Source of the DNA: Lachnospiraceae bacterium A2
Lineage (GTDB): Bacteria; Bacillota; Clostridia; Lachnospirales; Lachnospiraceae
Length of the DNA: 64,000 bases
Reading direction: 5' to 3'
NCBI GenBank assembly: GCA_000403315.2
Contig: KE159636.1
Span: 1,587,740-1,651,739, forward strand
Made by a program: the position numbers and the translations under genes
The notes under the pieces: model-generated
The model's input: only the letters and a program-made list of their open reading frames with translations
Databases searched by the model: none
What the model was told of the DNA's origin: nothing
In this document: positions 1 through 14,768 of the stretch, one piece after another
Numbering within the stretch: the stretch's first letter is position 1
How the letters are laid out: each line of letters begins with the position of its first letter

Positions 1-1965
1 GTGGAAGGATTTTTAAAATTCAGAGGGGTATGCAGTGAGGATGACAAAGAAGACGATATTGAGTGGTTAGAATATCCGCCTTATTACTATGCAATGTATT
101 ATAACCATTCACTTTTTAATGATGGATTTATTAAAAAGAAGATGAAACAGGACTTGAAATCTGCAAAAGAGAGGGCTTACGTAGGTAAAATTACAGTGAA
201 AGGGAACTACCAGACATTAACGCCGGATCTGTTTGCGCTGATGCAGCATATATTCGGGCTTCCGGTTACAGGGTTATTGAAATATAACCAGATTTATTCT
301 AATTACTGGAACCATCATTTAGAAGGTACGCCTTGGGTTGATATCATAAGATCACCGCATATTGCGCAGGAACATTCACCAGTACAAGTTGTGACGAGTG
401 GGGCAATGGAAAAATGGTTTGTATACCAGAAAACGGGTATTGTCATTGGTGTGTTTGGGAATACGGTTGCATTAAAGGCTAACAGCGCAGATTTTGATGG
501 GGATCATGTACTTACAGTGGACAGTCCGGTTATCTGCGAAGCGGCAATAAAACAGTTTTCCAATACAATCTACCATGAAAAGACGGAATATCCATATGTA
601 AAGGGAAAGAAGAAAAATAATATTGTTGTAAGTAACATGGATGAAACCATAGAGTGCGATTATAAGGGCTATAAAAACAATATCGGCAATGTAATTAACC
701 CGATCTCGGTTTTATGGTCGGTGGGAGGTTCCGGGGAAGTGCAGGATTTTATAAAGGTTATGAGCATCGTAGGATCAATTACGATTGACTACGCAAAACA
801 TGGGGAAGAAGCGGATATCCCGAAATGCATCCTTATGCTGTTAAAGAAACACCAAAAACCGTATTTTATGAAATACCTGCGTTCCGGCAAGAAGAAAAGA
901 AGCCAGGAAAAGGAACTGAAAGCAGTTGGGGAGTTGGTAGGCAGTGATATTGAAACGGAGTTGTTTGACAATACGGACTGTACAATGAACCGGATATGCC
1001 ATCATATGGAAGGGCAGATTGGCAGTATTGATATGGATATTAATATTGAAGAAGAATTCCATTGGGAGAGATTAATAGCATCCCTTCCAGATATTACAAG
1101 CTACAGATATAAGAAAGTCAGGGATAAACTAATAGAAATGCAGGAATGGCTCTATGAGATTAATAACGCAAAATATTGTAATACAGAAGACACAAATGAC
1201 AGTGTACAAGAATATAACAAAAATTATGATTTATTGTATGAATATGCAAAAGCTGAACTGCTCGCCATAGTCCGTGACGAAGCTGAATTGCTTGATATGC
1301 TCATCACAATTTATTATTCGGATAAGAAATTCATGGAGAAATACAATGATAAGACTGTTTTGTGGGGCTGTTTTGGTGAACAACTTATTGAGCGTTCTAA
1401 ATGTAATTTTTCATATCTTAGTAATTCAGATATGGACAGGCTGCTTAAAAGAGGCGGGAAGGCGAAAAAACATTTGGAAGATTTGAAAGAATATAGGGAG
1501 AAGAATTTCCAGATATGGGAATTTGAGAATGAAAAGAATGTGGACAGAGAAGTAACTTTATATAAGGAAGACATTCAATGGATCAAAAAGTCAATCCCTA
1601 CAAAAACAGAACGGTGTACGGATTGCAGGAGATTAATGCTGGTGTTGGCTTATATATGCCGGAAATGTGACATAGATGCCATTAGTATTATTCATAATAA
1701 AAATAACCGTATTACAAAATCGGCATTATGTAAACTTGCTGACATAGACAGAAGATATTTTGACGAAGATATAAAAATATTGGCGGAGTTATGTTTGCTT
1801 GATATATCAGTTGATAAATACAACCATCTGACATTAAAAAACGTACAGATGAACATGGACTGTAATGAAATACTTTTCACTGATATTCATTATAGGAAAT
1901 TAGCAGGCGTTATGAGGGATAAAATAAGAAAAAGTGAAAAATCCGTCAAAAAAGACTGTGCTTAA
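1..1965 (+). CDS. single-chain RNA polymerase of the YonO/QDE-1-like DFDGD clade (5' partial)
   Basis: The reading frame is open from the window edge, so the N-terminus is probably missing; the GTG at base 1 may be internal. Residue numbers are for the visible part. Residues 163-168 read ADFDGD, the metal-binding loop of the catalytic double-psi beta-barrel (D164, D166, D168). The surrounding motifs match the single-chain polymerases: RSPH near 117-120 before the loop, IGNVINP at 228-234, and IDYAKHG at 262-268, equivalent to the VDYxKTG motif after the barrel in eukaryotic-type RdRPs. Known of the family: YonO of Bacillus phage SPbeta is a one-polypeptide DNA-dependent RNA polymerase for late phage genes. 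The long C-terminal part contains C539-x2-C542-x10-C553-x2-C556, a possible zinc site, followed by a winged-helix-like segment (about 565-620) that could bind DNA (inference). The neighbouring tape measure and integrase place it in a prophage-like element. Confidence 0.82.
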   Translation: MEGFLKFRGVCSEDDKEDDIEWLEYPPYYYAMYYNHSLFNDGFIKKKMKQDLKSAKERAYVGKITVKGNYQTLTPDLFALMQHIFGLPVTGLLKYNQIYSNYWNHHLEGTPWVDIIRSPHIAQEHSPVQVVTSGAMEKWFVYQKTGIVIGVFGNTVALKANSADFDGDHVLTVDSPVICEAAIKQFSNTIYHEKTEYPYVKGKKKNNIVVSNMDETIECDYKGYKNNIGNVINPISVLWSVGGSGEVQDFIKVMSIVGSITIDYAKHGEEADIPKCILMLLKKHQKPYFMKYLRSGKKKRSQEKELKAVGELVGSDIETELFDNTDCTMNRICHHMEGQIGSIDMDINIEEEFHWERLIASLPDITSYRYKKVRDKLIEMQEWLYEINNAKYCNTEDTNDSVQEYNKNYDLLYEYAKAELLAIVRDEAELLDMLITIYYSDKKFMEKYNDKTVLWGCFGEQLIERSKCNFSYLSNSDMDRLLKRGGKAKKHLEDLKEYREKNFQIWEFENEKNVDREVTLYKEDIQWIKKSIPTKTERCTDCRRLMLVLAYICRKCDIDAISIIHNKNNRITKSALCKLADIDRRYFDEDIKILAELCLLDISVDKYNHLTLKNVQMNMDCNEILFTDIHYRKLAGVMRDKIRKSEKSVKKDCA

Positions 1966-2090
1966 ATGCCTGAAAGTACTGAAAAATAAGGGGTTTTTAA
2001 ACAGGTTGAAAAAGATTTGTACAAACTATACTAAGAGAAGGGAGTAGCGATAATTACAAAAATTTATACATAAAACATTGAGGAGGTAAC

Positions 2091-2288
2091 ATGAGCCAAA
2101 ACCAAAATGAATTGAGAGAAAAGCTGAATGCTACGATTACATCTGGTCTTGTTGCCAAAGCGATAGCAGCAAAAACAGGGATAACAACGGATTATCTTTC
2201 ACGGTTCAAAAACGGGCATATATGCCTGTGTGAAGATGATGCTAACAGGCTTAAGGCATACTTGGACAAGGTTGTAATACCTGATTAG
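2091..2288 (+). CDS. small helix-turn-helix protein (65 aa), first of a paralogous pair
   Basis: The start is fixed by a strong GAGGAGG site eight bases upstream of the ATG. The protein is a single short domain: a lead helix (about 5-15), then a lambda-repressor/XRE-like helix-turn-helix (about 18-45) containing TGITTDYLSRFKNG, and a final helix ending LKAYLDKVV. A second small gene at 2712-2888 has the same pattern, with DxLSxFKN and a terminal LxxYL. Likely role (inference): DNA-binding regulator of the element, Cro-like in size. It lies about 125 bp downstream of the RNA polymerase gene on the same strand and directly before a hairpin-rich non-coding segment. Confidence 0.7.
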   Translation: MSQNQNELREKLNATITSGLVAKAIAAKTGITTDYLSRFKNGHICLCEDDANRLKAYLDKVVIPD

Positions 2289-2289
2289 G

Positions 2290-2668
2290 TAATAATCTGC
2301 ATAAATGCAGTTATTATAAAAAATATTCAAGAAAGGCTTGAATATCGTACTATTACGGCGTAGGGGAAGCAGACAGCATTGTGGAAAAGGCTGTTTGCAA
2401 AATTCCCCTTGCCAAACGCAAACTGTTGCATATGGCAGTTTACATAAATCCATTCAATTAAATAATGTAATCAGGCTGGTGTGTGCCTCAAAACCACATC
2501 AGCCATTATGTGCGCTGAAACTCCACTTAGGCGTACAGAAATCATTCAAAACAAATAACAGATGTAAAAAGCCCTGCTGCATATACTCCCAATATGCATG
2601 TAGGCCGCCCAGCCGATACACGGAGCCTCTACAACTCCCAGGCTGGGTGTTAGTTTCAATTTTTTTTA
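2290..2668 (+). ncRNA. candidate structured non-coding RNA: seven consecutive hairpins ending in a T-run
   Basis: No convincing gene lies here, but strong inverted repeats follow one another: 2290-2316 (CTGCAT/ATGCAG inside TAATAA/TTATTA), 2323-2345 (nine pairs), 2362-2409 (AGGGGAA/TTCCCCT enclosing GCAGACAG/CTGTTTGC), 2420-2441 (AAACTG/CAGTTT), 2474-2504 (ten pairs, further flanked by ATAAT/ATTAT), 2578-2598 (TGCATAT/ATATGCA), and 2608-2647 (CCCAGCC/GGCTGGG with inner GGAG/CTCC). An eight-T run follows at 2660-2667, as in an intrinsic terminator. The strand is inferred from the T-run and neighbouring genes. The first hairpin could instead simply terminate the upstream HTH gene. I do not recognise the fold as a known family. 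Confidence 0.5.
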
Positions 2669-2711
2669 TAGAAAATATTATCCATGAATAAAAAGGAAGG
2701 TGAAAGAAGTT

Positions 2712-2888
2712 TTGACACAAGAAGAATTACGAACAATGTTACATCAACGTTTAGAAAGAGAAAAAGCCAGTTATATATGTAAGGTAATTGGGATGAATAA
2801 AGATACGCTTAGTAAATTCAAAAACAATAAAATTGATCTGTACCCACATTTATTCGTGAAATTGCAGGACTATCTTTTGAATAATTAA
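2712..2888 (+). CDS. small helix-turn-helix protein (about 58 aa), second of the pair
   Basis: This is a short paralogue of the gene at 2091-2288: it shares an N-terminal QEELR segment, then a helix-turn-helix containing GMNKDTLSKFKNNK, and a terminal helix with LQDYLL. The start is ambiguous. A GTG at 2700 follows the AAGGAAG purine stretch with no spacer, while a TTG at 2712 is about 11 bases from it, so TTG is preferred here. It lies immediately downstream of the hairpin-rich region. Probable DNA-binding regulator of the element (inference from size and fold). Confidence 0.6.
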   Translation: MTQEELRTMLHQRLEREKASYICKVIGMNKDTLSKFKNNKIDLYPHLFVKLQDYLLNN

Positions 2889-3335
2889 GCAGCCAATAAA
2901 CCAGGCACCCATTTCTCAGGAATCCGGATTCTGAAAATGAAATTATAATTCTGAAAATCAAATAGTAACAGGAACCCAAAAACATTAAAAATTATAGAAA
3001 ACCAAAAAAATACTCAAAAAACAGTAAAAAATCATAAAAAAACGCTAAAAATTTGAAAAAATAAGCAAAAATTTACGTTTTTTGGAAGAAGTGTAAAACA
3101 TCAACATGATACAATACAATGAAAATTTAATATGGAACTAATGATAGCACAACAGTGGGATGGTGTAAAGTTGGAAAATATGTTTGTGTTTTGGATAGTG
3201 GAGGGTAGGTAAGCTGGGATGGTAAATATATTTAATAAGGAAGAAACAGGAAACATATGATTGCATCAATGGGGTAGGGGTGGTATAATGGTAACATAAT
3301 ATATAATGGAAGAAAAAGGTTTGGGGGTGTAGGGT
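2889..3335. other. non-coding gap: A-rich then G/T-rich segment upstream of the zinc-ribbon gene
   Basis: No gene is seen. The first half is very A-rich with the direct repeat ATTCTGAAAAT (2929-2961). The second half is strikingly G/T-rich on the plus strand, with repeated TGGGATGGT (near 3157 and 3215) and GGGG runs at 3271-3280 and 3322-3326. A sigma-A-like promoter sits at 3261-3289. The skew and repeats suggest a regulatory region rather than decayed coding sequence. Confidence 0.5.
3261..3289 (+). promoter_or_regulatory. sigma-A-like promoter ahead of the zinc-ribbon gene
   Basis: TTGCAT (3261-3266), a 17-base spacer and TATAAT (3284-3289), followed about 45 bases later by the start codon at 3336. 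This suggests that at least this gene of the element can be read by host polymerase. Confidence 0.55.
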
Positions 3336-3761
3336 ATGGGCAGAACAATTCTTTGTCCGCATTGCAAATCAACCATAAATGAAGATATATTGAAACAGAA
3401 AAATAGTGAAAACATATGTCTGGTTTGTGGTGGGAGATTGGATGGTGGAAATGCAGATGGATTAAAGAAAAGTAAATGGTATTATTATAAGGAAGGTGGG
3501 GGGACATTGATGAATACAGTGTCTACTAGCTTTACACCTTTATATACATTTGAAGCAGTAGATTTGGAAGACGCAAAAGAACAATTAAAAGAAGTCATGC
3601 CTAATAGCCCCCTTTTGAGTAATAAAACTGTACCAAAAGTGCAGTGCCCATATTGTTTCAGCACAGAGGTACAATTAGTGCCAAAGAAATTTAGCTTATT
3701 GACAGGCATTATGACAAACGGATTCAACCGTGTCTGTGTCAGATGCCAGAGGAAATTTTAG
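3336..3761 (+). CDS. double zinc-ribbon protein of unknown function (141 aa)
   Basis: The sequence shows two Cys4 modules. An N-terminal one has CPHC and CLVCGG (about residues 7-34), and a C-terminal one has CPYC and CVRCQRKF (about 107-141), separated by an acidic linker. Such ribbons bind zinc and often contact nucleic acid or protein partners; the exact role is unknown. No signal peptide or membrane segment is present. The GTG/G-rich purine stretch just before the ATG serves as ribosome site. It lies between the RNA polymerase/HTH block and the tape measure gene, so a role in the element's transcription is conceivable (inference only). Confidence 0.65.
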   Translation: MGRTILCPHCKSTINEDILKQKNSENICLVCGGRLDGGNADGLKKSKWYYYKEGGGTLMNTVSTSFTPLYTFEAVDLEDAKEQLKEVMPNSPLLSNKTVPKVQCPYCFSTEVQLVPKKFSLLTGIMTNGFNRVCVRCQRKF

Positions 3762-3792
3762 GGTTTTTAACAATTGAATAATAGTGACAGCA

Positions 3793-3823
3793 AGGGAGAT
3801 TATTTCATAGTCTCTCTTTTATT
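3793..3823 (+). terminator. probable intrinsic terminator after the zinc-ribbon gene
   Basis: GGGAGA pairs with TCTCTC across an ~11-base loop (about 3793-3815), followed by TTTTATTAT. It separates the zinc-ribbon gene from the tape measure gene. Confidence 0.5.
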
Positions 3824-3853
3824 ATGCTTAAAATTAAGGAGGAAACAGGAATA

Positions 3854-6800
3854 TTGAGTAATGGAACAAATGAATTTGTATTGGACTTACTTGCCCTCTT
3901 GGATCAGCAGAAGAGCAAAACGCAGATCAACGCCCAGATTAAAGAGCTGGAGAAAAGCATACGGAAACTAAGGCTTGTTGGGATTCTGGCAAAAGGCGAC
4001 ACAAAGAATGAAGTCAATCAGATTATCCGGCAGATGGAGGGGAACCTGCGGCAGATTAAGATACAGGCGAAGATGGACAGCCGCCAGCTAAACAGGGAAA
4101 TTAACAGCGCATTGAGGAATGTGTCAGCAAGGGACATCCAGCTTAATATTAATAGCAACAGTGAAAGGCTTGGTGTACAGGTTAGGCGCGCCGTTTCCGA
4201 GGCAAGGGAGTTTGCAAGCAGGAACCCTATCAGCGTGAACATTGATTTGAAGAAGGAAAAGTTATTGAACCAATTGACGGCATTTACCAATAAGCACACC
4301 AAAATAAATGAATCGTCATACTGGCTTGGGGAAGCAGAAAGGCTGCGGAATGTAATCAGTTCCATTACAAACAGGGATGAACTCAGGAATGCGACAGACC
4401 AGCTACAAGTGTTCACTACAGGGGTAAGGGCTACCGGGTATGCAGCCTTGTCAACAACTGACAGGATCAAGGGGATGCTGGGGAACGTCATAAAGGTTGG
4501 GAATTACTTTGGGCTTGCTTTTGTTGCGGTAAATAAATTCCGGCAATCCCTAAATACGCTGAAAACCAATGACACGATACTTGTTGAAATATCTAAGACC
4601 TCAGAGATGACGAAACAGCAGCTAAGGGAATTAGGGGACGAAGCCTTTAAAGTCGCAAGCAAATTCGGCCAAGTTTCGGGGAATTACCTTACAGCGGTTC
4701 AGGAGATGGCCAGATCAGGTTATGAGATGATGTCAAGGGAACTTGGGGAGCTGTCATTATTGGCGCAAAGTGCCGGGGATATGACGGCAGAAATGGCGAA
4801 CAATTACCTGCTTGCAACAGACGCGGCATATAAATATGGCGGCAGTGTGGATAAATTAACAGCCGCCCTTGACGGGGCGAACTACATTTCAAACAAAAAT
4901 AGTGCGTCATTGACTGATATCGCCGATGGTATCCGCGTTTCTGCGTCCTTTGCGGCAAATGCGGGGGTAGCCATTGAAGAACTGACGGCGGCAGAAGCTG
5001 CCATGGTTGCAGCAACAAAAAGAAGCGGCTCTGAAATGGGGCGGTCTTTCCGTTCCATTATCCTCAACCTCCAGCAAGTTTCCGGTGAGTTTGACGGGGA
5101 AGTGATTGACGAGGAGCAGCTTAAGAAGGTGGAAGACAGATGCCATTCCCTGGGCGTGGAGCTGGAGTATATAAAAGACGGTGTTGCGACACTCCGCAAC
5201 CCGATGGACATACTGAAAGACTTGGCAGAGGTCTACAATTCCTTGCCAGATAACAGTGCAGAAAAGCAGGGGCTGATTTCAGATATAGGAGGAAAGTACC
5301 ATGCAAACGCGCTATCAGCCCTTTTAAGCCGGTGGGATTTATATGAAAAGATGGTTGGCGAGTTTTCACAGGGCACAGGCTCCGCACTGGAGGAAGCAAA
5401 TAAGACAGCAGATTCATGGGAAGGACGCTTAAATTCCCTTTCCAACAGTTTTGATTCTTTTGTAGCATCCATTACAAGTAAGGATGTGATAAAAGGTGGT
5501 GTGTCATTCCTTGACAATGCAATCCAGTCGTTTGAAAAGCTGGCTGACACAATAGGGGCAATCCCAGTCATCCTTACCGCTTTCCAGGCATCAATGACAG
5601 CCCTCAATAAAAATTACGGAATAACGCAATTGTATAATAAAGATACCCATAAGATAGACTTGCAAGGTAATATCATGGGCATAGATATCACTGGTTTTAA
5701 GACACAGCAGAAACATTTCAGGGATGCAGCAGAAGCAATACAACTTTGGAATGGTAATTTGGTTAATGGTACAGCAGATATGAGCACTTTCGCAAATGCT
5801 GTTGTAGAGAACAACGAACAGTTAAAAGCATACCTCCAGACAACATCCGTAGAAGCCCCTGCTTCTTTAGCAGGATACAGGGCATATTTGAATTCCTGTG
5901 GTGTTTCAACTGATTCACTCAGGATCAAAACAGTGCTTTTAAATTCCGCACTGACTTTGGGTTTGAGCCTTGGCATACAGGCAGTTGCAACAGCAGTTTC
6001 AAATTTCATCCGCGTATCAGGCGATGTTGCGCAGAAAGCAGATGAAGTAAGCAATACTTTCAGCAGCGCAAAGTCCGACATTGACAGCTACAAGTCCAAA
6101 GTGGAAGAGCTGCAAGCAGTGCTCAATGATTCCAGCTCCTCCATCTCCGATGTCACGGAAGCACGCAAAACCCTTATGTCAATCCAAGACGAGATGATGG
6201 AAAAATACGGCGCGGAAAAGGGCGCAATCGACTTAATCACCGAGGGGATTAACGGACAGGCAGACGCTTTTGATAAATTAGCGCAAAAGCAGTGGCAGGA
6301 AGCAAAGAATGAATTCAATGATGGCGGGTTCGCCAATAATGCTGCAAACCTCATAAACGGATACTCAGACAATATAGACCGTATGTTATCTGAATATGGC
6401 GATTATAAAGTAAAGCTGGATTTATCCGTGGCCACAACCGGATTAAGCCCAGCGGAAATAGAGGAATTCAAGAAATTATTCGAAGACAATGGGATGGAAA
6501 TCACTTATGGGACGAAAGGGACGGCCTCCAACAACCCGTTTGTGGAACTGTCCGGGAACGCAAGTGAGATGCATGAAAAACTTCTGGAACTCCAGGAAAT
6601 GTTTTCAGGCACAAACCCATTATCAACAGAAAATTTCAGGAACTATTTAACTGGCCTTGCGAATTCCGCAAAAGAGGTATCGGAACAATATAAGGATATG
6701 CATGACAGCTATATCCTATATGAAGAAATAGCAAAGAATGAGGGCTATGCCAGCGCATTTGATAATATCAAAGGTGCATACCAGAAATACAAAGACGCAA

Positions 6801-9800
6801 AAGTTTCCGGCAATGGACAGGAGCTTGCAAAAGCGGCAGAGGATTATGCGAAAATAATCACGGATGCAACTGCCAAGGCATTGGAAAACGGGAATGGGGG
6901 CGTTGCAGATTATTTTGAATCCATGTACCCGGAACTGAAGTCCATGGTGGGACAGTGGGAGTTCAAGACAAAAATAATCCCCGACTTTGACATGAGCGGG
7001 TTACAGGGGAAAACAGAGAATGACGTCCTTGGGATGCTCCAGACAGAGGGCACACAGGAAGGGGAATCTGTTTTCAACTCGATTATTGATAAAGCAAAAG
7101 AATATGGGATTATTACAGAGGACAATGCAGAGGGGATACAGGAAGTGTTGGGTCTGCTTGTGGAATGGGGCATACTGCAAAAAGACATTTCAGAAACAGA
7201 ACCGCCGGAACCGCCATCCTACAAAGACTCCCTAGACGGCGTGCAGAATGTTGCGGGCAACCTCAAAACCCTCATGGAAGTCTATGACGACGTACAGGAC
7301 GGGGATGGGTTCGACTGGTCTTCCATCTTAAACAATGATGATTTTGAAGCTGTCTTCAGCAGCGCAGGGAAAGCCTATGATGACTTTATCAAAACAGTCA
7401 CCAAGAACCCAGACGACATCACCGCGTGCCAGGACGCTTTTGACAGGCTGGCGACTTCACTCATTGACAATAGCGGCATTTGGGATGATTTAACCGCTGA
7501 AACAAAGGAAGCCACCATTGCAATGCTAGAGGAAAACGGCGTTGTAAATGCAGCAGAGTTAGTGGCGGCAAGGCTTGCTTTGCAGGAGGAATGGCTTGCG
7601 CTCACAAAAGACAATGCCGCAATGGCTGGGAAGAAACTTTCCGAGACGACTTGGGAAGAAATTGCTTCCATCTTAAGTGAAGGGAATGCATCCGACACAA
7701 CAGCGGGTTACCTTACCGCACTTGCCATCTCCAAGATGGACGTGAACAGCATCACCATTGACACCACGGACGACGTGAACCAGATTGTCGCAATCGCAAA
7801 TGCAGCAGGCGCATCCACTGCATATATCCAAGCCCTTGCAAATGCACTCCTGAATTTCAAGTCCATGCAGTTCGACACGGACACACTGGGCGGGAAAGTC
7901 GGCAACGCGGCAAGGGACATAGCGGCAAATGCCTTGGAAAACGGCCTGAAATCCACGCTTTCCGCACAGTTGGAGGGCGCAAAGCTGGATGCATCCCAGT
8001 TCTATGCAAAGTCAGGCGGCACGGGCGGCTCCGGGAAATCTGGGAAGTCTGGTTCCGGGAAGTCCGGTTCCAAGGAGAAGGAAGAAAAACAGTCCATAGA
8101 AGTGTTTGACTTCATTGAAACTGCAGTCTCCCGTGTCGAGAAGGCCATTGACAGGCTGAAGACACGCGCAGAAGAAACCTTCCGCAGCTTCACAAAGAGG
8201 GGCAGGGAATACAAGAAGGCAATCTCCAGCATTACAGAAGAAATTGACATCCAACGCAAGGGATATGACAAGTACATGGCAAGGGCGAACAGCATCGGCT
8301 TGGAGGAAACATGGGCGGCACAAGTCCGTGACGGCAGCATCAACATAGCGGACGTTGCAGATGACGGCCTGAAAGAGCGGATTAAAAATTACAAGGAGTG
8401 GTACGAAAAGGCACTCCAATGCCAAGAGAAACTGGAGGAGTTACAGAAGACACAGAAGGAATTAGCCCGTGAGAAAATCGAACTCCTAATCACCAAATAT
8501 AGCAAACTCCTTGAAAAACTGGAATCCGCAAACAAACGGATACAGGGCAATATAGACTACAAGGAAGCATGGGGCTTCTCCGCAAGCACAAAGGACTATT
8601 CCAAACTCAACAAAAACGCACAGTCCCAGATTTCCAACATCATCAAGCAGGACAAAAAGCTGAAAGAGCTGCAAAAGACTGTCACCAAGGGTTCTGAAGC
8701 ATGGCACGAATACAATGAACGGATTAACTCAAATAATGAATCCATCCAAAGCCTCACAAAGACCATGGCTGAAAACGCCACCGCATCCGCTTCCCTTGCA
8801 AAGCAGAATGCAGAAGCCAAAAACAGTGCAAAGGACACCGCAGATGAAAAGACGGATACACGCCTTTCCACCGCGTCCACTGCATCCAGAAAAAACAGCC
8901 TAATAAGCAGCAAGGCAAGGAACATTGACGCAAGGCAGAAGAACCTACAGGCAGCTTATGCAAAGACTGCCAAGAGCCGTTCCTCCTATGGGGATAAAAT
9001 CCTGAAATCCAGCAGGAAGGGCGTTTCCAAGAAAAACAGGAAGCTGTTCACACAGGCCATCGCAAAAGTGAAGGCCGGGAAATTAATACCCGCCACTGCC
9101 ATAAGCGGCATCGTGGACGCAATGAAAACCGCAACGGGCAGGGAATACAAGGCACTAAATACACTCCTCTCCTACTGCAATTACTACAATGCAAACAAAA
9201 ATGCAGAGGAGGAAAACAGGCTTAACCTAGAAATGTACGCCCTCACCGCACAGGAAGAGAAAAAGTCCTTACGGCAGGAGCAGCTAAGCAACAATCTGGA
9301 CGCAAACCAGTCCAAGGCAGACCGCAGCACAGTCTCCAACGCAGAATCCACGTCCGCAAAGAACCATAACCTCAATACGCAGACCCGCCAAAGCAGGGCA
9401 GACAGGGACGCCCAGACAAAGGCAAGGAGGACGGCATCCAAGGACAGGAAAACAGCCGCAGGGAAGGCAAAGTTCTATACGGGCAAGACATATAAGGGGC
9501 TGAAAAACAAAAAGCTGAAAAACCGCCTGAAAAAAGCGGCATCCGCTATTAAGTCCGGCAAGAAAATAAGCAATGGCGCACTGAAGGCCGTGAAGGAATA
9601 CTGCGAAAAATACCTCATGGGCGACCTGACTTATTATTACAACTGTTTAGCCTATAATGAAGCAGTGGAAAATGAGCTAAGCGCAAAGGAAAGTGAAACG
9701 CTTGCAAAGGCACAGTACTATGCGGACAGCTTACAGGCAAAGCAGGAAAAGGCGGCCAACACAGTGTCTGGCAGGGACGCGGAGAATGAACTGCACTCCG

Positions 9801-12388
9801 CAGCCGCAAAGAACCAGACCACCGCAGGGGCAAAGAACCGCTACGTGGACAGCCAGATATCCAACATAACCAAGAACGCGTCCACCTATAAGTCAGCATA
9901 TAACACTGCGAAAAAGGACTTCTCCAACGCGAAGAAGAAAATCGAAGGGAACAAAAGCAAAAATAAAGCTGTAAAGGAAATCAAGTCCAAATACGTAAGC
10001 AAAAACATCCTGATACCAGCACCCTACATTGAGAAGGCATATGCGGTATCCAACAGCTTCGGGCTTGCATGTGAGAACTACAATGAAGCATTGGGCGCAA
10101 TGGAAACCGCAAAGGAAACTTCTGCACTCTATGGACAGACCGCAAAGACAGAGAAGGCAGCCCTCGCGCTTGAGAAAATGTCCAACATTGAAACGGAGTA
10201 CTCCCACAAGGAAAGCGAATTCGCCCAGCGCGCCGCAAGGCTCAACAACGCCATGGACATTGCACAGGCGAAAGGCTACCAGACAAGCAAGGAATACTAT
10301 GGAGGGCTGCTCCAGAATGAGGAAGGCACAAGAAAAACCTTAACCGGCAAACTTGCAGAACTCACCAAATCGCTGGAAGAATCGGTTGGCAACGGCACTG
10401 TCACCAAGTTCTCGGATGAATGGTACGAGGCACAGGGCAGGATCAATGACGTGGCAAATGCAATAGACGAAGCCGCAGTCTCCATGGCAGAGTTCAAGAG
10501 CCAGATACGCCAGATTGGATGGGACAACTTCGACTACCTACAGAACCGTGTAAAAGACGTGGCATCCGAACTCAGCTTCATGGTAAACGAATTATCAAGG
10601 GAAGGCGTTACAGATGACAAGATTGGGTGGCTGACAGAAGAAGGCAAGTCCACGGCATGGCTCCATGCAAACAGCTATGAACTTTACCGGAAACAGGCGG
10701 CCGATTATAAAAAAGCAGTCGGGGAACTAAACAAGGAGCTTGCAGACGACCCATATAACAGGACGCTCCTGGACAGGCGGCAGGAACTCATAAACTCCTA
10801 CCGGGACGCAGTGGAAGGCGCACAGGATGAGAAATATGCAGTCATAGACTTATATGAACAGGGCTACAATGCACTCTCCAACAAGCTGAAGACACTAACC
10901 AGCGAATATGGGGAACTATTGGACACCCAGAAGGACGCATTTGAATACTCAGACACCATCGCAGGCAAGACAAAGGAGATAGCCGCCCTGCGCAAGCAGA
11001 TGGAGGCCTATGCGGGGGACATGTCCGAGGAAACAAGGGCAAAGGTACAGGGAATCAAGGTTTCGCTGGAAGAAGCGGAGAAAAACTTACAGGAAACCCA
11101 GTACGGCAGGTACATCTCCGACACCAAAAACATGCTCTCCGACCTGCAGGGGGACTTTGACGAAGCAGTACAGGCCATCATAGATTCATTATCTGAGAAC
11201 TTCGGGGAACTATTGGAGGGGATCAGCCAGACAGCGGGGGATTCCGTGCAGGCAATCACAGGGCACATGTCAGGGATTGGCTACACCCCGACAGACGAAT
11301 TCCGCTCGTTATTGAATGAATCCGGCATCACAAATTCCGTGTCCGCAATGCTCACAGGCCTGAACGACTACCACGCAAAGATGGAAGCCCATGCAGACAG
11401 GATAGCGTCCGGGATGGGGCTGCCAGGGGATGCTGCGGGCAATACAGGCACAAATGCCGCACAAAACGGGAATGGCACAGCAGGGAATAACAATGGCACA
11501 GGCACTGCACCAGGGGGTTCAGGCACACAAAGCAGCGGCACAGGCGGCACACCAGGCGTGAAAGGCGGGAAACAGGAACTTACTGCTGTAAATGCTGGCG
11601 CACAGAAGCCAGTGGAAACATTGGAAGAAATTACAGGCGGCAAGGGGGGCACTGGGCAGGCAAATAAAAAACTGAAAACCGACGCGCTCTCCTACCTTGA
11701 CAGGAACTTAAAGGCAACCAAGGCAAAGCGCGACAGCCTGTCTGACACCAACAAAAAATTCTATGACAAGTTCAATAAGAAGACACTGACAACCAAGCAG
11801 ATGAAGGAGCTTGCAAAGCTCCTCGGGGTAAAGTACGACAGCCAGAAATCATCCGGGAGCCTATATAAGAAGCTGAAGGAAATCGGGATAAAGGGGTTCC
11901 GCGTAGGCTCCCACAACATCCCATACGACCAGCTTGCGTTCCTTGGCGAAGGGAGGGACGAGCTGCATTTCAGCAAAAACGAGGGGACGCTCACGAAAGT
12001 CGGGCAGGGCGACATGGTATTCACCAATGAGATGGCGCAGCGGCTGTGGGAGATCTCACAGGCAAACCCAGAATTAATCCGGGAGAAGTTCGGGATACCT
12101 GCCCCCGCAGCCCATGGGTACACCGCCCAGCCGCCCGCAGGGGAGGCAGCCCAGTATGTGGGGGGAGGGAACGTAACCATGAACGTCACCTTCGGGGACA
12201 TGAACCTGCCAAACGTGACGGACGCAACAAGCGCAGGGGAAATGAAGGGCATCGTGGAGGACTGCCTGTGTGAAATCGTGTGCACGGAAAGCAGGGGGTT
12301 CAAGTGCCTGTCGGAAGGCCTATATTCCAAAATGCTCGGGCGCGGGATAGGCCATGCAAGGCTGTATGCGACAAACCACAGGCGTTAA
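3854..12388 (+). CDS. giant TP901-type phage tail tape measure protein (about 2844 aa)
   Basis: Tape measure proteins set tail length and line the tail lumen. An ATG at 3824 has no ribosome site, whereas AAGGAGG (3836-3842) lies inside the frame 11 bases before a TTG at 3854, so the TTG start is preferred. The N-terminus is alpha-helical; residues about 230-600 carry the TP901/PhageMin_Tail core (TEMTKQQLRELGDEAFKVA; MVAATKRSGSEMGRSFRSI; DSWEGRLNSLSNSF). A long coiled region follows a Gly/Ser/Lys linker. Around residues 1720, 1880 and 2035 there are three divergent copies of a ~155-residue Lys/Ala-rich helical module. A Gly/Thr/Asn-rich linker (about 2535-2575) precedes the C-terminal domain. 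Codon choice and GC content appear higher than in the flanking AT-rich element genes. No other tail gene lies between it and the integrase. Confidence 0.9.
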   Translation: MSNGTNEFVLDLLALLDQQKSKTQINAQIKELEKSIRKLRLVGILAKGDTKNEVNQIIRQMEGNLRQIKIQAKMDSRQLNREINSALRNVSARDIQLNINSNSERLGVQVRRAVSEAREFASRNPISVNIDLKKEKLLNQLTAFTNKHTKINESSYWLGEAERLRNVISSITNRDELRNATDQLQVFTTGVRATGYAALSTTDRIKGMLGNVIKVGNYFGLAFVAVNKFRQSLNTLKTNDTILVEISKTSEMTKQQLRELGDEAFKVASKFGQVSGNYLTAVQEMARSGYEMMSRELGELSLLAQSAGDMTAEMANNYLLATDAAYKYGGSVDKLTAALDGANYISNKNSASLTDIADGIRVSASFAANAGVAIEELTAAEAAMVAATKRSGSEMGRSFRSIILNLQQVSGEFDGEVIDEEQLKKVEDRCHSLGVELEYIKDGVATLRNPMDILKDLAEVYNSLPDNSAEKQGLISDIGGKYHANALSALLSRWDLYEKMVGEFSQGTGSALEEANKTADSWEGRLNSLSNSFDSFVASITSKDVIKGGVSFLDNAIQSFEKLADTIGAIPVILTAFQASMTALNKNYGITQLYNKDTHKIDLQGNIMGIDITGFKTQQKHFRDAAEAIQLWNGNLVNGTADMSTFANAVVENNEQLKAYLQTTSVEAPASLAGYRAYLNSCGVSTDSLRIKTVLLNSALTLGLSLGIQAVATAVSNFIRVSGDVAQKADEVSNTFSSAKSDIDSYKSKVEELQAVLNDSSSSISDVTEARKTLMSIQDEMMEKYGAEKGAIDLITEGINGQADAFDKLAQKQWQEAKNEFNDGGFANNAANLINGYSDNIDRMLSEYGDYKVKLDLSVATTGLSPAEIEEFKKLFEDNGMEITYGTKGTASNNPFVELSGNASEMHEKLLELQEMFSGTNPLSTENFRNYLTGLANSAKEVSEQYKDMHDSYILYEEIAKNEGYASAFDNIKGAYQKYKDAKVSGNGQELAKAAEDYAKIITDATAKALENGNGGVADYFESMYPELKSMVGQWEFKTKIIPDFDMSGLQGKTENDVLGMLQTEGTQEGESVFNSIIDKAKEYGIITEDNAEGIQEVLGLLVEWGILQKDISETEPPEPPSYKDSLDGVQNVAGNLKTLMEVYDDVQDGDGFDWSSILNNDDFEAVFSSAGKAYDDFIKTVTKNPDDITACQDAFDRLATSLIDNSGIWDDLTAETKEATIAMLEENGVVNAAELVAARLALQEEWLALTKDNAAMAGKKLSETTWEEIASILSEGNASDTTAGYLTALAISKMDVNSITIDTTDDVNQIVAIANAAGASTAYIQALANALLNFKSMQFDTDTLGGKVGNAARDIAANALENGLKSTLSAQLEGAKLDASQFYAKSGGTGGSGKSGKSGSGKSGSKEKEEKQSIEVFDFIETAVSRVEKAIDRLKTRAEETFRSFTKRGREYKKAISSITEEIDIQRKGYDKYMARANSIGLEETWAAQVRDGSINIADVADDGLKERIKNYKEWYEKALQCQEKLEELQKTQKELAREKIELLITKYSKLLEKLESANKRIQGNIDYKEAWGFSASTKDYSKLNKNAQSQISNIIKQDKKLKELQKTVTKGSEAWHEYNERINSNNESIQSLTKTMAENATASASLAKQNAEAKNSAKDTADEKTDTRLSTASTASRKNSLISSKARNIDARQKNLQAAYAKTAKSRSSYGDKILKSSRKGVSKKNRKLFTQAIAKVKAGKLIPATAISGIVDAMKTATGREYKALNTLLSYCNYYNANKNAEEENRLNLEMYALTAQEEKKSLRQEQLSNNLDANQSKADRSTVSNAESTSAKNHNLNTQTRQSRADRDAQTKARRTASKDRKTAAGKAKFYTGKTYKGLKNKKLKNRLKKAASAIKSGKKISNGALKAVKEYCEKYLMGDLTYYYNCLAYNEAVENELSAKESETLAKAQYYADSLQAKQEKAANTVSGRDAENELHSAAAKNQTTAGAKNRYVDSQISNITKNASTYKSAYNTAKKDFSNAKKKIEGNKSKNKAVKEIKSKYVSKNILIPAPYIEKAYAVSNSFGLACENYNEALGAMETAKETSALYGQTAKTEKAALALEKMSNIETEYSHKESEFAQRAARLNNAMDIAQAKGYQTSKEYYGGLLQNEEGTRKTLTGKLAELTKSLEESVGNGTVTKFSDEWYEAQGRINDVANAIDEAAVSMAEFKSQIRQIGWDNFDYLQNRVKDVASELSFMVNELSREGVTDDKIGWLTEEGKSTAWLHANSYELYRKQAADYKKAVGELNKELADDPYNRTLLDRRQELINSYRDAVEGAQDEKYAVIDLYEQGYNALSNKLKTLTSEYGELLDTQKDAFEYSDTIAGKTKEIAALRKQMEAYAGDMSEETRAKVQGIKVSLEEAEKNLQETQYGRYISDTKNMLSDLQGDFDEAVQAIIDSLSENFGELLEGISQTAGDSVQAITGHMSGIGYTPTDEFRSLLNESGITNSVSAMLTGLNDYHAKMEAHADRIASGMGLPGDAAGNTGTNAAQNGNGTAGNNNGTGTAPGGSGTQSSGTGGTPGVKGGKQELTAVNAGAQKPVETLEEITGGKGGTGQANKKLKTDALSYLDRNLKATKAKRDSLSDTNKKFYDKFNKKTLTTKQMKELAKLLGVKYDSQKSSGSLYKKLKEIGIKGFRVGSHNIPYDQLAFLGEGRDELHFSKNEGTLTKVGQGDMVFTNEMAQRLWEISQANPELIREKFGIPAPAAHGYTAQPPAGEAAQYVGGGNVTMNVTFGDMNLPNVTDATSAGEMKGIVEDCLCEIVCTESRGFKCLSEGLYSKMLGRGIGHARLYATNHRR

Positions 12389-13422: not shown

Positions 13423-14631
13423 ATGGAGGCCATGAAGAGAGAGGAATTATTGAAGAAGCACCAATACAAAATCTGGCAGGGGAAGGACGGGAAGTGGTAC
13501 ACTTATCTGCCGGATGAATCTAAAAAGGATGGGAGGAGGTTAATCAAAAGGACTACAGAAAAAGGCATACAAGGTACATTGGAAGATTATTATAAAAAAT
13601 TTGAACAGATACAGAAGGTTACGTTTAAGTATGCATATGATAGGTGGCTTGAAGCACATTCCATTTCCTTTAACAGTGAAAATACATTGGTAAAATACCG
13701 GACAGATTATGAAAGATTTTTTAAAGGCAGTGATATTGAATTTATGGACATAAAGCTGTTTAATGAAGAAAATGTAAAAAGTTTTATCATTTCATTATGT
13801 AAAGAAAAGAAACTTGCACCTAAAGCATGTAAGACGTTGTGTGGATATATGCGGAATACATTTAAAAGCGCGAAAATTCATAAAGATATTCCAGAGAATC
13901 CATTTGAAAACTTGGAAACAAAGCAATTTTATCAATATTGTACAAGAAAAGTAAAAACACCAGAACAGAGAACGATTTCCAACCATGAGTTTAAGTTGCT
14001 CTATGAGCAATTCCATTTGGATTATGAGAAGCATCCAGATTACATTCCTACATATGCAGTGGAGTTTGCAAGCCTGACAGGGTTTCGGGTTGGGGAAATA
14101 TCCTCATTAATGTGGAAAGATATTCAAAATGGGATGATAGTTGTGAATAAATCTGAAAAGTACAACAGAGAAAAAAAGGAATACTGGATTGGCTCCACCA
14201 AAAATGGAAAGGAAAGGTATATGCCACTGACAGATGAAATCATAAATTTGCTTATGCGAATAAAGGCAGTGCAAAAGAAGTATGGTTTTGATTCAGAATA
14301 TATTTTTGCTAATGAAAACGGAAGGATACATGCGCCTGTAATTTCTTCCTGCGCAAAAAATAAATGTAAGCAAATAGGGATACCTTACAAGAGCATACAT
14401 GCATACCGGAGGACTTTTTCGTCTAAATTAAAATGCAACGGAGTATCTACAACAGTGGTAGCATCATTGTTGGGGCACACAGAAGAAGTAAATGAACAAT
14501 ACTATACTTATGACATTACAGAGATGCAAGACAAACGCCTTATGGTTGGCATGGTAACAAAAGATATCATAAATACTCAAGTCCTGAAAGAAGAAAACAG
14601 ACTTCCAATTAAAAAAGGTAATCAGAGGTAA
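13423..14631 (+). CDS. int: tyrosine-type site-specific recombinase (integrase)
   Basis: Catalyses integration and excision of the element. From the N-terminus: a short arm-binding region (KIWQGKDGKWYTYLPD), a SAM-like core-binding domain (about residues 60-160), and the catalytic domain with R in TGFRVGEISSL, an H-x-x-R box in HAYRRTF, LLGH, and the nucleophile tyrosine in YYTYDIT. The start is uncertain: the frame is open from TTG 13369; ATG 13423 and TTG 13450 (after AGAGAGG) are alternatives. The C-terminus runs to within 52 bp of tRNA-Pro, the usual arrangement of an integrase next to its own att site. Confidence 0.9.
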   Translation: MEAMKREELLKKHQYKIWQGKDGKWYTYLPDESKKDGRRLIKRTTEKGIQGTLEDYYKKFEQIQKVTFKYAYDRWLEAHSISFNSENTLVKYRTDYERFFKGSDIEFMDIKLFNEENVKSFIISLCKEKKLAPKACKTLCGYMRNTFKSAKIHKDIPENPFENLETKQFYQYCTRKVKTPEQRTISNHEFKLLYEQFHLDYEKHPDYIPTYAVEFASLTGFRVGEISSLMWKDIQNGMIVVNKSEKYNREKKEYWIGSTKNGKERYMPLTDEIINLLMRIKAVQKKYGFDSEYIFANENGRIHAPVISSCAKNKCKQIGIPYKSIHAYRRTFSSKLKCNGVSTTVVASLLGHTEEVNEQYYTYDITEMQDKRLMVGMVTKDIINTQVLKEENRLPIKKGNQR

Positions 14632-14735
14632 TCAGAATATGTATTCCCTCACCAATGAAAACCCTTGTAAAATAAAGAAAAATCGGGGTAACAGGATTCG
14701 AACCTGCGACCTCACGGCCCCCAGCCGTGCGCTCT
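14610..14735. other. probable attachment site (att) at the 3' end of tRNA-Pro
   Basis: The element's integrase ends at 14631 and the 3' end of tRNA-Pro begins at 14683. The crossover core is expected inside the tRNA 3' half (T arm and acceptor, about 14683-14735). A direct repeat GGTAATCAGA occurs twice at the integrase end (14618-14637) and may be an arm site. The matching partial tRNA copy should lie at the other end of the element, outside this window. Confidence 0.55.
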
Positions 14736-14757
14736 AGCCAAGCTGAGCCATACCCCG
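14683..14757 (-). tRNA. tRNA-Pro (anticodon GGG)
   Basis: Read on the minus strand: acceptor CGGGGTA/TACCCCG, D arm GCTC/GAGC, anticodon stem CACGG/CCGTG with loop CTGGGGG (anticodon GGG), T arm GCAGG/CCTGT with loop TTCGAAT, discriminator A. CCA is not encoded. It is intact, so the element reconstitutes the tRNA 3' end at this junction. Confidence 0.95.
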
Positions 14758-14768
14758 AATACCTATCT

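Follow-up and report, generated by a model that had tools for sequence, protein, structure and literature searches.

The stretch analysed here (the window) comprises 64,000 nucleotides of the genome of a gut bacterium, Lachnospiraceae bacterium A2 (assembly GCA_000403315.2, contig KE159636.1, positions 1,587,740 to 1,651,739), and its left edge cuts through the gene of a YonO-like single-chain RNA polymerase carried by an integrated, phage-derived element. The open reading frame (ORF) at 1-1965 (654 aa) is truncated by this edge, and the upstream genome sequence continues the frame free of stops (open frame of 1,080 codons), the ATG at window coordinate -1250 being the likely start codon of a 1,071-aa product. 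The gene and its principal parts are as follows.

1..1965, + strand: YonO-like single-chain RNA polymerase, C-terminal 654 of 1,071 residues; gene start at window coordinate -1250 (G000:C1:1586489)
490..504, + strand: DFDGD catalytic motif, full-length residues 581-585 (D581, D583 and D585 invariant in 46 sequences)
1606..1851, + strand: winged helix at the C-terminal end (residues 953-1034 of the full-length protein), a homologue of the companion that accompanies phage and tail-cluster polymerases as a separate ORF

A first-pass annotation, made from the letters of the window, had proposed a single-chain polymerase of the YonO/QDE-1 kind, and this assignment is borne out by a match to the Pfam RdRP family (PF05183, E 4e-15), by tblastn matches to 35 of 50,697 phage records, SPbeta included (best E 1e-55), by invariant motifs and by the predicted fold. 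The ADFDGD string lies where it had been placed (visible residues 163-168, i.e., full-length 580-585), as do RSPH (534-537), IGNVINP (645-651) and IDYAKHG (679-685). Across 46 aligned enzymes of elements and phages, a set without YonO itself, the three aspartates are invariant together with R534, P536, G646, N650, D680 and K683, and the same residues are invariant in a nine-row alignment that includes YonO. Both alignments also keep K296 and K341 invariant, two basic residues that belong to the chain's other barrel and which we presume to act as their counterparts in QDE-1 and YonO do. The model predicted for the single chain has the fold of the two-barrel superfamily: it aligns with RDR2 and QDE-1, its nearest solved structures, over residues 14-893 (the two barrels not being separately delineated), with 12-16% identity in the structural alignments. 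At the sequence level, phmmer with the single polymerase protein gave no real match in the PDB, and the A3 profile matched RDR2 and QDE-1 weakly (E 0.01-0.1), in contrast to alignment A1; the pattern for the viral scan was drawn from alignment A2. Judged from its catalytic motifs and predicted fold, the ORF is a YonO-like single-chain RNA polymerase of the two-barrel family, a family already known, and the gene is intact and, with omega values of 0.06-0.14, evolving under purifying selection.

The C-terminal region had been read as a CxxC-x10-CxxC motif and a winged-helix-like part that could recognise promoters, and of these two features the winged helix stands: it is homologous to a separate, uncharacterised ORF (the companion) that many YonO-type phages, and some tail clusters, carry directly 3' of their polymerase. 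A zinc ribbon was rejected, since the cysteines (about 956/959 and 970/973) are not conserved in the related loci L158, L159, L160 and L161 and overlap a predicted helix (955-972). With A6, no match was obtained to the post-polymerase proteins of the G027/G043 group; these proteins do match companions (83%, E 9e-6). By homology and position, the winged-helix protein is a candidate promoter-recognition factor, helping the enzyme to find or open its promoter. Its fusion to the polymerase appears undescribed, as judged from a limited literature search (titles and abstract starts), to which the later statements of this kind also refer.

The element is 55.6 kb long and is flanked by a 47-bp repeat at tRNA-Pro, in agreement with the earlier suggestion of tRNA integration: the 47 bp reaching into the tRNA gene at 14682-14758 are exactly repeated 55,585 bp to the left. 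GC content is 38.4% within the element and 48% outside. On its right side the polymerase is followed by two small ORFs, a cysteine-rich ORF, a tape-measure gene and the integrase.

2091..2288, + strand: small ORF, 65 aa, helix-turn-helix (HTH)-like by eye, without Pfam or PHROG match at E 0.01; a similar-sized ORF follows the polymerase in other elements
2338..2690, + strand: conserved stretch without convincing gene, candidate small RNA; its end shows a hairpin and T run like those of a terminator (by eye)
2700..2888, + strand: another small ORF, of 62 aa, with a weak CII-like PHROG match (E 4e-4)
2978..3125, + strand: phased A-tracts and, after them, the conserved block TAAAA..CAACATGATACAATA; the region may be the promoter or origin of the tape-measure unit
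3336..3761, + strand: small cysteine-rich (zinc-ribbon-like) ORF directly 5' of the tape-measure gene, weak matches only
3824..12388, + strand: tape-measure-like protein, 2,854 aa (PhageMin_Tail PF10145, E 1e-15; phrog_4211, E 7e-59)
13432..14631, + strand: tyrosine integrase (PF00589, E 5e-20)
14671..14717, no strand: attR, 47-bp exact repeat of attL (G000:C1:1546825-1546871)
14682..14758, - strand: tRNA-Pro (GGG), integration site

The left side of the element includes HU-like, ParB-like and HNH genes, ArdC, a Lar-like gene, a GmrSD_N protein, transposases (by eye) and a protein that shares 42% identity with one from SPbeta-type phages (phi3T, for example). The GmrSD_N (DUF262) protein is paired with a sigma-70 region 2 protein (E 1e-7 for the G023 copy) in three elements (the window's, G023 and L035), and the pair was noticed at about -21566 to -19736, left of the window, and at L026:820-2788. 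Pfam and PHROG scans of 20 element proteins revealed neither terminase nor portal nor capsid, except for one weak head-family match. Profiles for TerL and portal, derived from YonO-type phages, recognised 58 and 38 of the 84 phage loci and miss other terminases, as in L173, L179, L181 and L184, which look like complete prophages by eye; they were likewise silent in the element. The terminase search, comprising the two Pfam families PF03354 and PF03237, gave hits in this genome only at 364 kb or more from the element or on another contig. The genes that would mark an SPbeta-like prophage (terminase, portal and capsid behind the polymerase) are thus not seen in the element, and of those that would mark a tailocin neither tail tube nor tip genes were found, the tape measure being the only tail gene.

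Polymerases 74-85% identical to that of the window occur on eight genome contigs labelled Lachnospiraceae, Eubacterium, Eubacteriaceae or just bacterium, and an IMG/VR record with a 100% identical polymerase is probably the window element itself. Where contigs are long enough (G023, L034, L035, L036, L037), the polymerase is followed by a small HTH-like ORF and by a tape measure, with a tyrosine integrase behind in the window, L035 and L037 and a serine recombinase in G023. In the more distant L158-L161, polymerase and tape measure occur as well, followed in L159 and L161 by an integrase or recombinase. In a 50-sequence tree the nine polymerases of the window's class form one clade (support 1.0). 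Between the window and G023, the tape measures diverge strongly in the N-terminal third; over residues about 1045-2814 non-synonymous divergence (dN) is well below synonymous divergence (dS), the latter being near saturation. The tape-measure gene is interrupted in the G023 record, and the polymerase frame of L036 is cut short in the ORF calls. Part of the window tape measure (1,016 residues) shares 57% identity with its counterpart in a chromosomal tail locus (G015 contig C15), which suggests exchange between mobile and fixed loci. As a class, these mobile polymerase/tape-measure elements appear undescribed. In one of them (L037:172-1236) a protein with an FtsZ/tubulin-like start was noticed by eye.

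Between polymerase and tape measure, the stretch 2338-2690 is 78.5% and 82% identical in two other elements. No Rfam RNA was assigned to it: only tRNAs reached the gathering score, and the sole weak hit in 1-4000 (E 0.53) sits outside it, at 2021-2135. An unannotated RNA lies near the YonO start site in SPbeta too (PMC5467207). Further on, the region 2978..3125 shows 94% identity to the G023 element across 213 bp. The phased A-tract maximum of the whole window falls at 2981-3090, in the gap that separates the second small ORF from the tape-measure unit, and the strongest phased A-tract lies in the same gap in the stretches read of G023, G022, L035 and L037; the contig maximum of L036 also falls there, yet is weak and inside an ORF. 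Such tracts were rejected as a general mark of YonO promoters, being weak in L034, L158-L161, SPbeta, BUCT082 and PMBT24. A block TAAAA..CAACATGATAyAATA follows the A-tracts; a promoter motif repeated through the elements was not obtained, a degenerate pattern, loosely written and missing the true site in some elements, having met only 4-mismatch sites, few per contig.

With the nine-row profile, YonO-like polymerases were found in 36 of 298 Lachnospiraceae genomes (the window's included), at 44 places. Inspection of 25 of the other 43 places, mostly better-scoring ones, yielded 18 tail-type loci lacking TerL and portal by profile (L148-L156, L163-L167, L186, L187, G041 and G043; the contigs of L152, L163 and L186 end 4.5-7.1 kb from the polymerase), four polymerase/tape-measure loci (L158-L161) and three phage-like loci (L162 and L185 with TerL and portal, L157 with yonJ and HU homologues only). 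Behind the polymerase, the tail-type loci carry a conserved ORF here named chap, a tube (17 of 18) and a tape measure (16 of 18), tape measures being called by profile or blastp because the tape-measure profile is poor (22 hits). Homologues of the sigma-70 region 2 protein, the GmrSD_N protein or both lie at most 4 kb upstream of the polymerase in eight of these 18 clusters. Four more loci of the window's genus, from a separate search, are also of the tail kind (G003, two in G015, and G027). Tail tube, tape measure and tip/hub genes without head genes are present together in L148, L150, L156, L187, G043, G027 and G041, and were not seen as a full set in the others. A holin and an M15 peptidase in the G027 cluster hint that particles may be released from it. 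Tape-measure genes vary in build: in L154, L064/L065, L151 and L166 the gene is split into N- and C-terminal ORFs with opposite-strand zinc-ribbon-like ORFs between (L151 and L166 with repeated N-terminal pieces), and L150 has one long ORF.

Head genes were sought in several ways. TerL and portal profiles gave no match across ten clusters read over 51-100 kb. In the 24 genomes with these loci or elements, the sole PF03354 or PF03237 hit near a polymerase was next to the SPbeta-like copy of G346, which served as positive control; the remaining hits lie at least 150 kb off on the same contig or on other contigs, the latter without known distance since the genomes are mostly drafts, and neither family matched in six genomes (G260, G287, G167, G148, G207 and G041). 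Ten proteins scanned from the cluster of G346, which has host genes on either side (by eye), fall by PHROGs into tail and unknown families and one head-labelled family (phrog_2729); the 242-aa protein so labelled was rejected as a head protein, as the six-member alignment that it leads matches a solved tail tube (E 9e-9).

Some clusters keep their place. In three species of the window's genus (G003, G013 and G015) polymerase and next gene adjoin gpsA, plsY and der homologues (named by eye), i.e., by gene context such a polymerase is held at one chromosomal place, G013 being placed by polymerase and next gene; G027 shares the nearest flanking genes with this locus. In the polymerase tree the tail-cluster enzymes are scattered in several places among phage ones, with some nodes weak, which makes a repeated origin of the headless state, or an exchange of polymerases, probable. 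In the class sample 23 of 393 genomes were positive; of the 17 loci fetched from it outside the Lachnospiraceae, five look like phages by profile (L168, L170, L171 and L177, with L183 by yonJ and HU only), four more do so by eye and eight stayed unassigned. Headless tail clusters with a YonO-like polymerase appear undescribed.

Among the closest known systems is YonO of SPbeta: a single chain of the same family with a DxDGD motif, encoded ahead of late structural genes in the same direction. YonO is DNA-dependent and transcribes the SPbeta late operon (PMC5467207). It differs from the window protein in being shorter (839 aa by its coordinates) and 27% identical over half the protein, in a match that stops before the winged helix, and in a phage that has terminase, portal and tail genes where the window element has only the tape measure. 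The polymerases of Enterocloster phage PMBT24 and Bacillus phage BUCT082 belong to the same family (25-28% identity) and have the winged-helix factor as a separate ORF directly behind, in contrast with the fused window enzyme; unlike the element, PMBT24 has terminase, portal, capsid and tail genes behind its polymerase, a full set for head and tail. QDE-1 and plant RDR2, unlike the window enzyme, are eukaryotic RNA-silencing enzymes. F-type tailocins (monocin, F-pyocin and rhizoviticin) have tail genes without head genes and so resemble in gene content the chromosomal clusters more than the window element with its single tape measure. To our knowledge, no polymerase of the YonO-like kind occurs at F-type tailocin loci.

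These comparisons argue, with good though incomplete assurance, for a YonO-like polymerase that in a phage-derived headless element transcribes the downstream late unit, as one form of a wider Lachnospiraceae tail-cluster pattern. Position and homology point to a late-transcription role like that of YonO, and the enzyme is most likely a late polymerase dedicated to a tail module of phage origin. Its target would be a late unit that in this element has shrunk to the tape-measure gene, in parallel with YonO and the late operon of SPbeta, with the winged-helix factor assisting in promoter finding or opening; the boldest reading is that a tape measure without its own tube and head genes would make satellite-like use of a helper's tails. 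Several points weigh on the other side. One of the 20 scanned proteins has a weak head-and-packaging match (phrog_7299, E 0.006), and, with 20 proteins scanned, the others could still include a divergent head gene that went unnoticed. The block behind the A-tracts resembles an extended -10 box, so the host enzyme may transcribe the tape-measure unit, and the polymerase might transcribe other element genes or act on RNA. Moreover, 58 of 136 loci, SPbeta-like ones among them, have no companion next to the polymerase, 12 of the 58 being of the window's class (companion fused, or domain not separately checked).

That the element is a tailed-phage satellite, its polymerase making a tape measure that retunes or captures helper tails while the helper supplies head and packaging, is rather unlikely: integrase and tape measure with head genes not found, the match to part of a chromosomal tape measure, and ArdC with the Lar-like gene would all suit it, but neither a packaging signal nor a helper was identified, and 55 kb is large for a phage satellite. 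A decaying prophage, its head genes lost and polymerase and tape measure left over without current function, is less probable again. The unrecognised terminase, portal and capsid genes, the transposases, the interrupted G023 tape measure and the shortened L036 polymerase frame are what decay would leave; the low polymerase omega and the constrained portion of the tape measure are not, nor are a core shared by elements of several species with two unrelated integrase types and the grouping of the polymerases in one well-supported clade. An RNA-dependent RNA polymerase like QDE-1 or RDR2 is very improbable. The closest solved structures and the Pfam name RdRP would favour it, but YonO, QDE-1 and RDR2 all belong to one superfamily, in which the phage enzyme that has been characterised, YonO, depends on DNA (PMC5467207), and here, as with YonO, the gene lies ahead of a phage structural unit.

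A broader proposal extends the late-polymerase reading of the window enzyme, and we advance it tentatively, as a possibility with the odds against it: Lachnospiraceae may hold headless tail machines with their own single-chain RNA polymerase and winged-helix initiation factor, comprising chromosomal clusters (some at one place across species, having arisen several times from YonO-type phages) and a mobile class, exemplified by the window element, with only polymerase and tape measure acting on the tails of others. Forrest et al. 2017 (PMC5467207) left open the transcription targets of chromosomal YonO-like enzymes and the need of YonO for promoter-recognition factors. Both questions would receive testable answers, i.e., tail gene clusters without recognised heads as targets, and as promoter factor the winged-helix protein, fused here and encoded right behind the enzyme in many relatives. 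Should this hold, there would be a class of tail machines served by a polymerase of their own, and a defined promoter system in which to study a single-chain relative of cellular RNA polymerase. The limited literature search returned no description of headless tail clusters with their own RNA polymerase; among its results was a review on clostridial tailocins (PMC10538166).

The remainder of the window, from about 14800 to 64000, consists by eye of ordinary chromosomal genes (transporters, cysS-like and purL-like genes) with tRNA-Val, tRNA-Met and tRNA-Thr.
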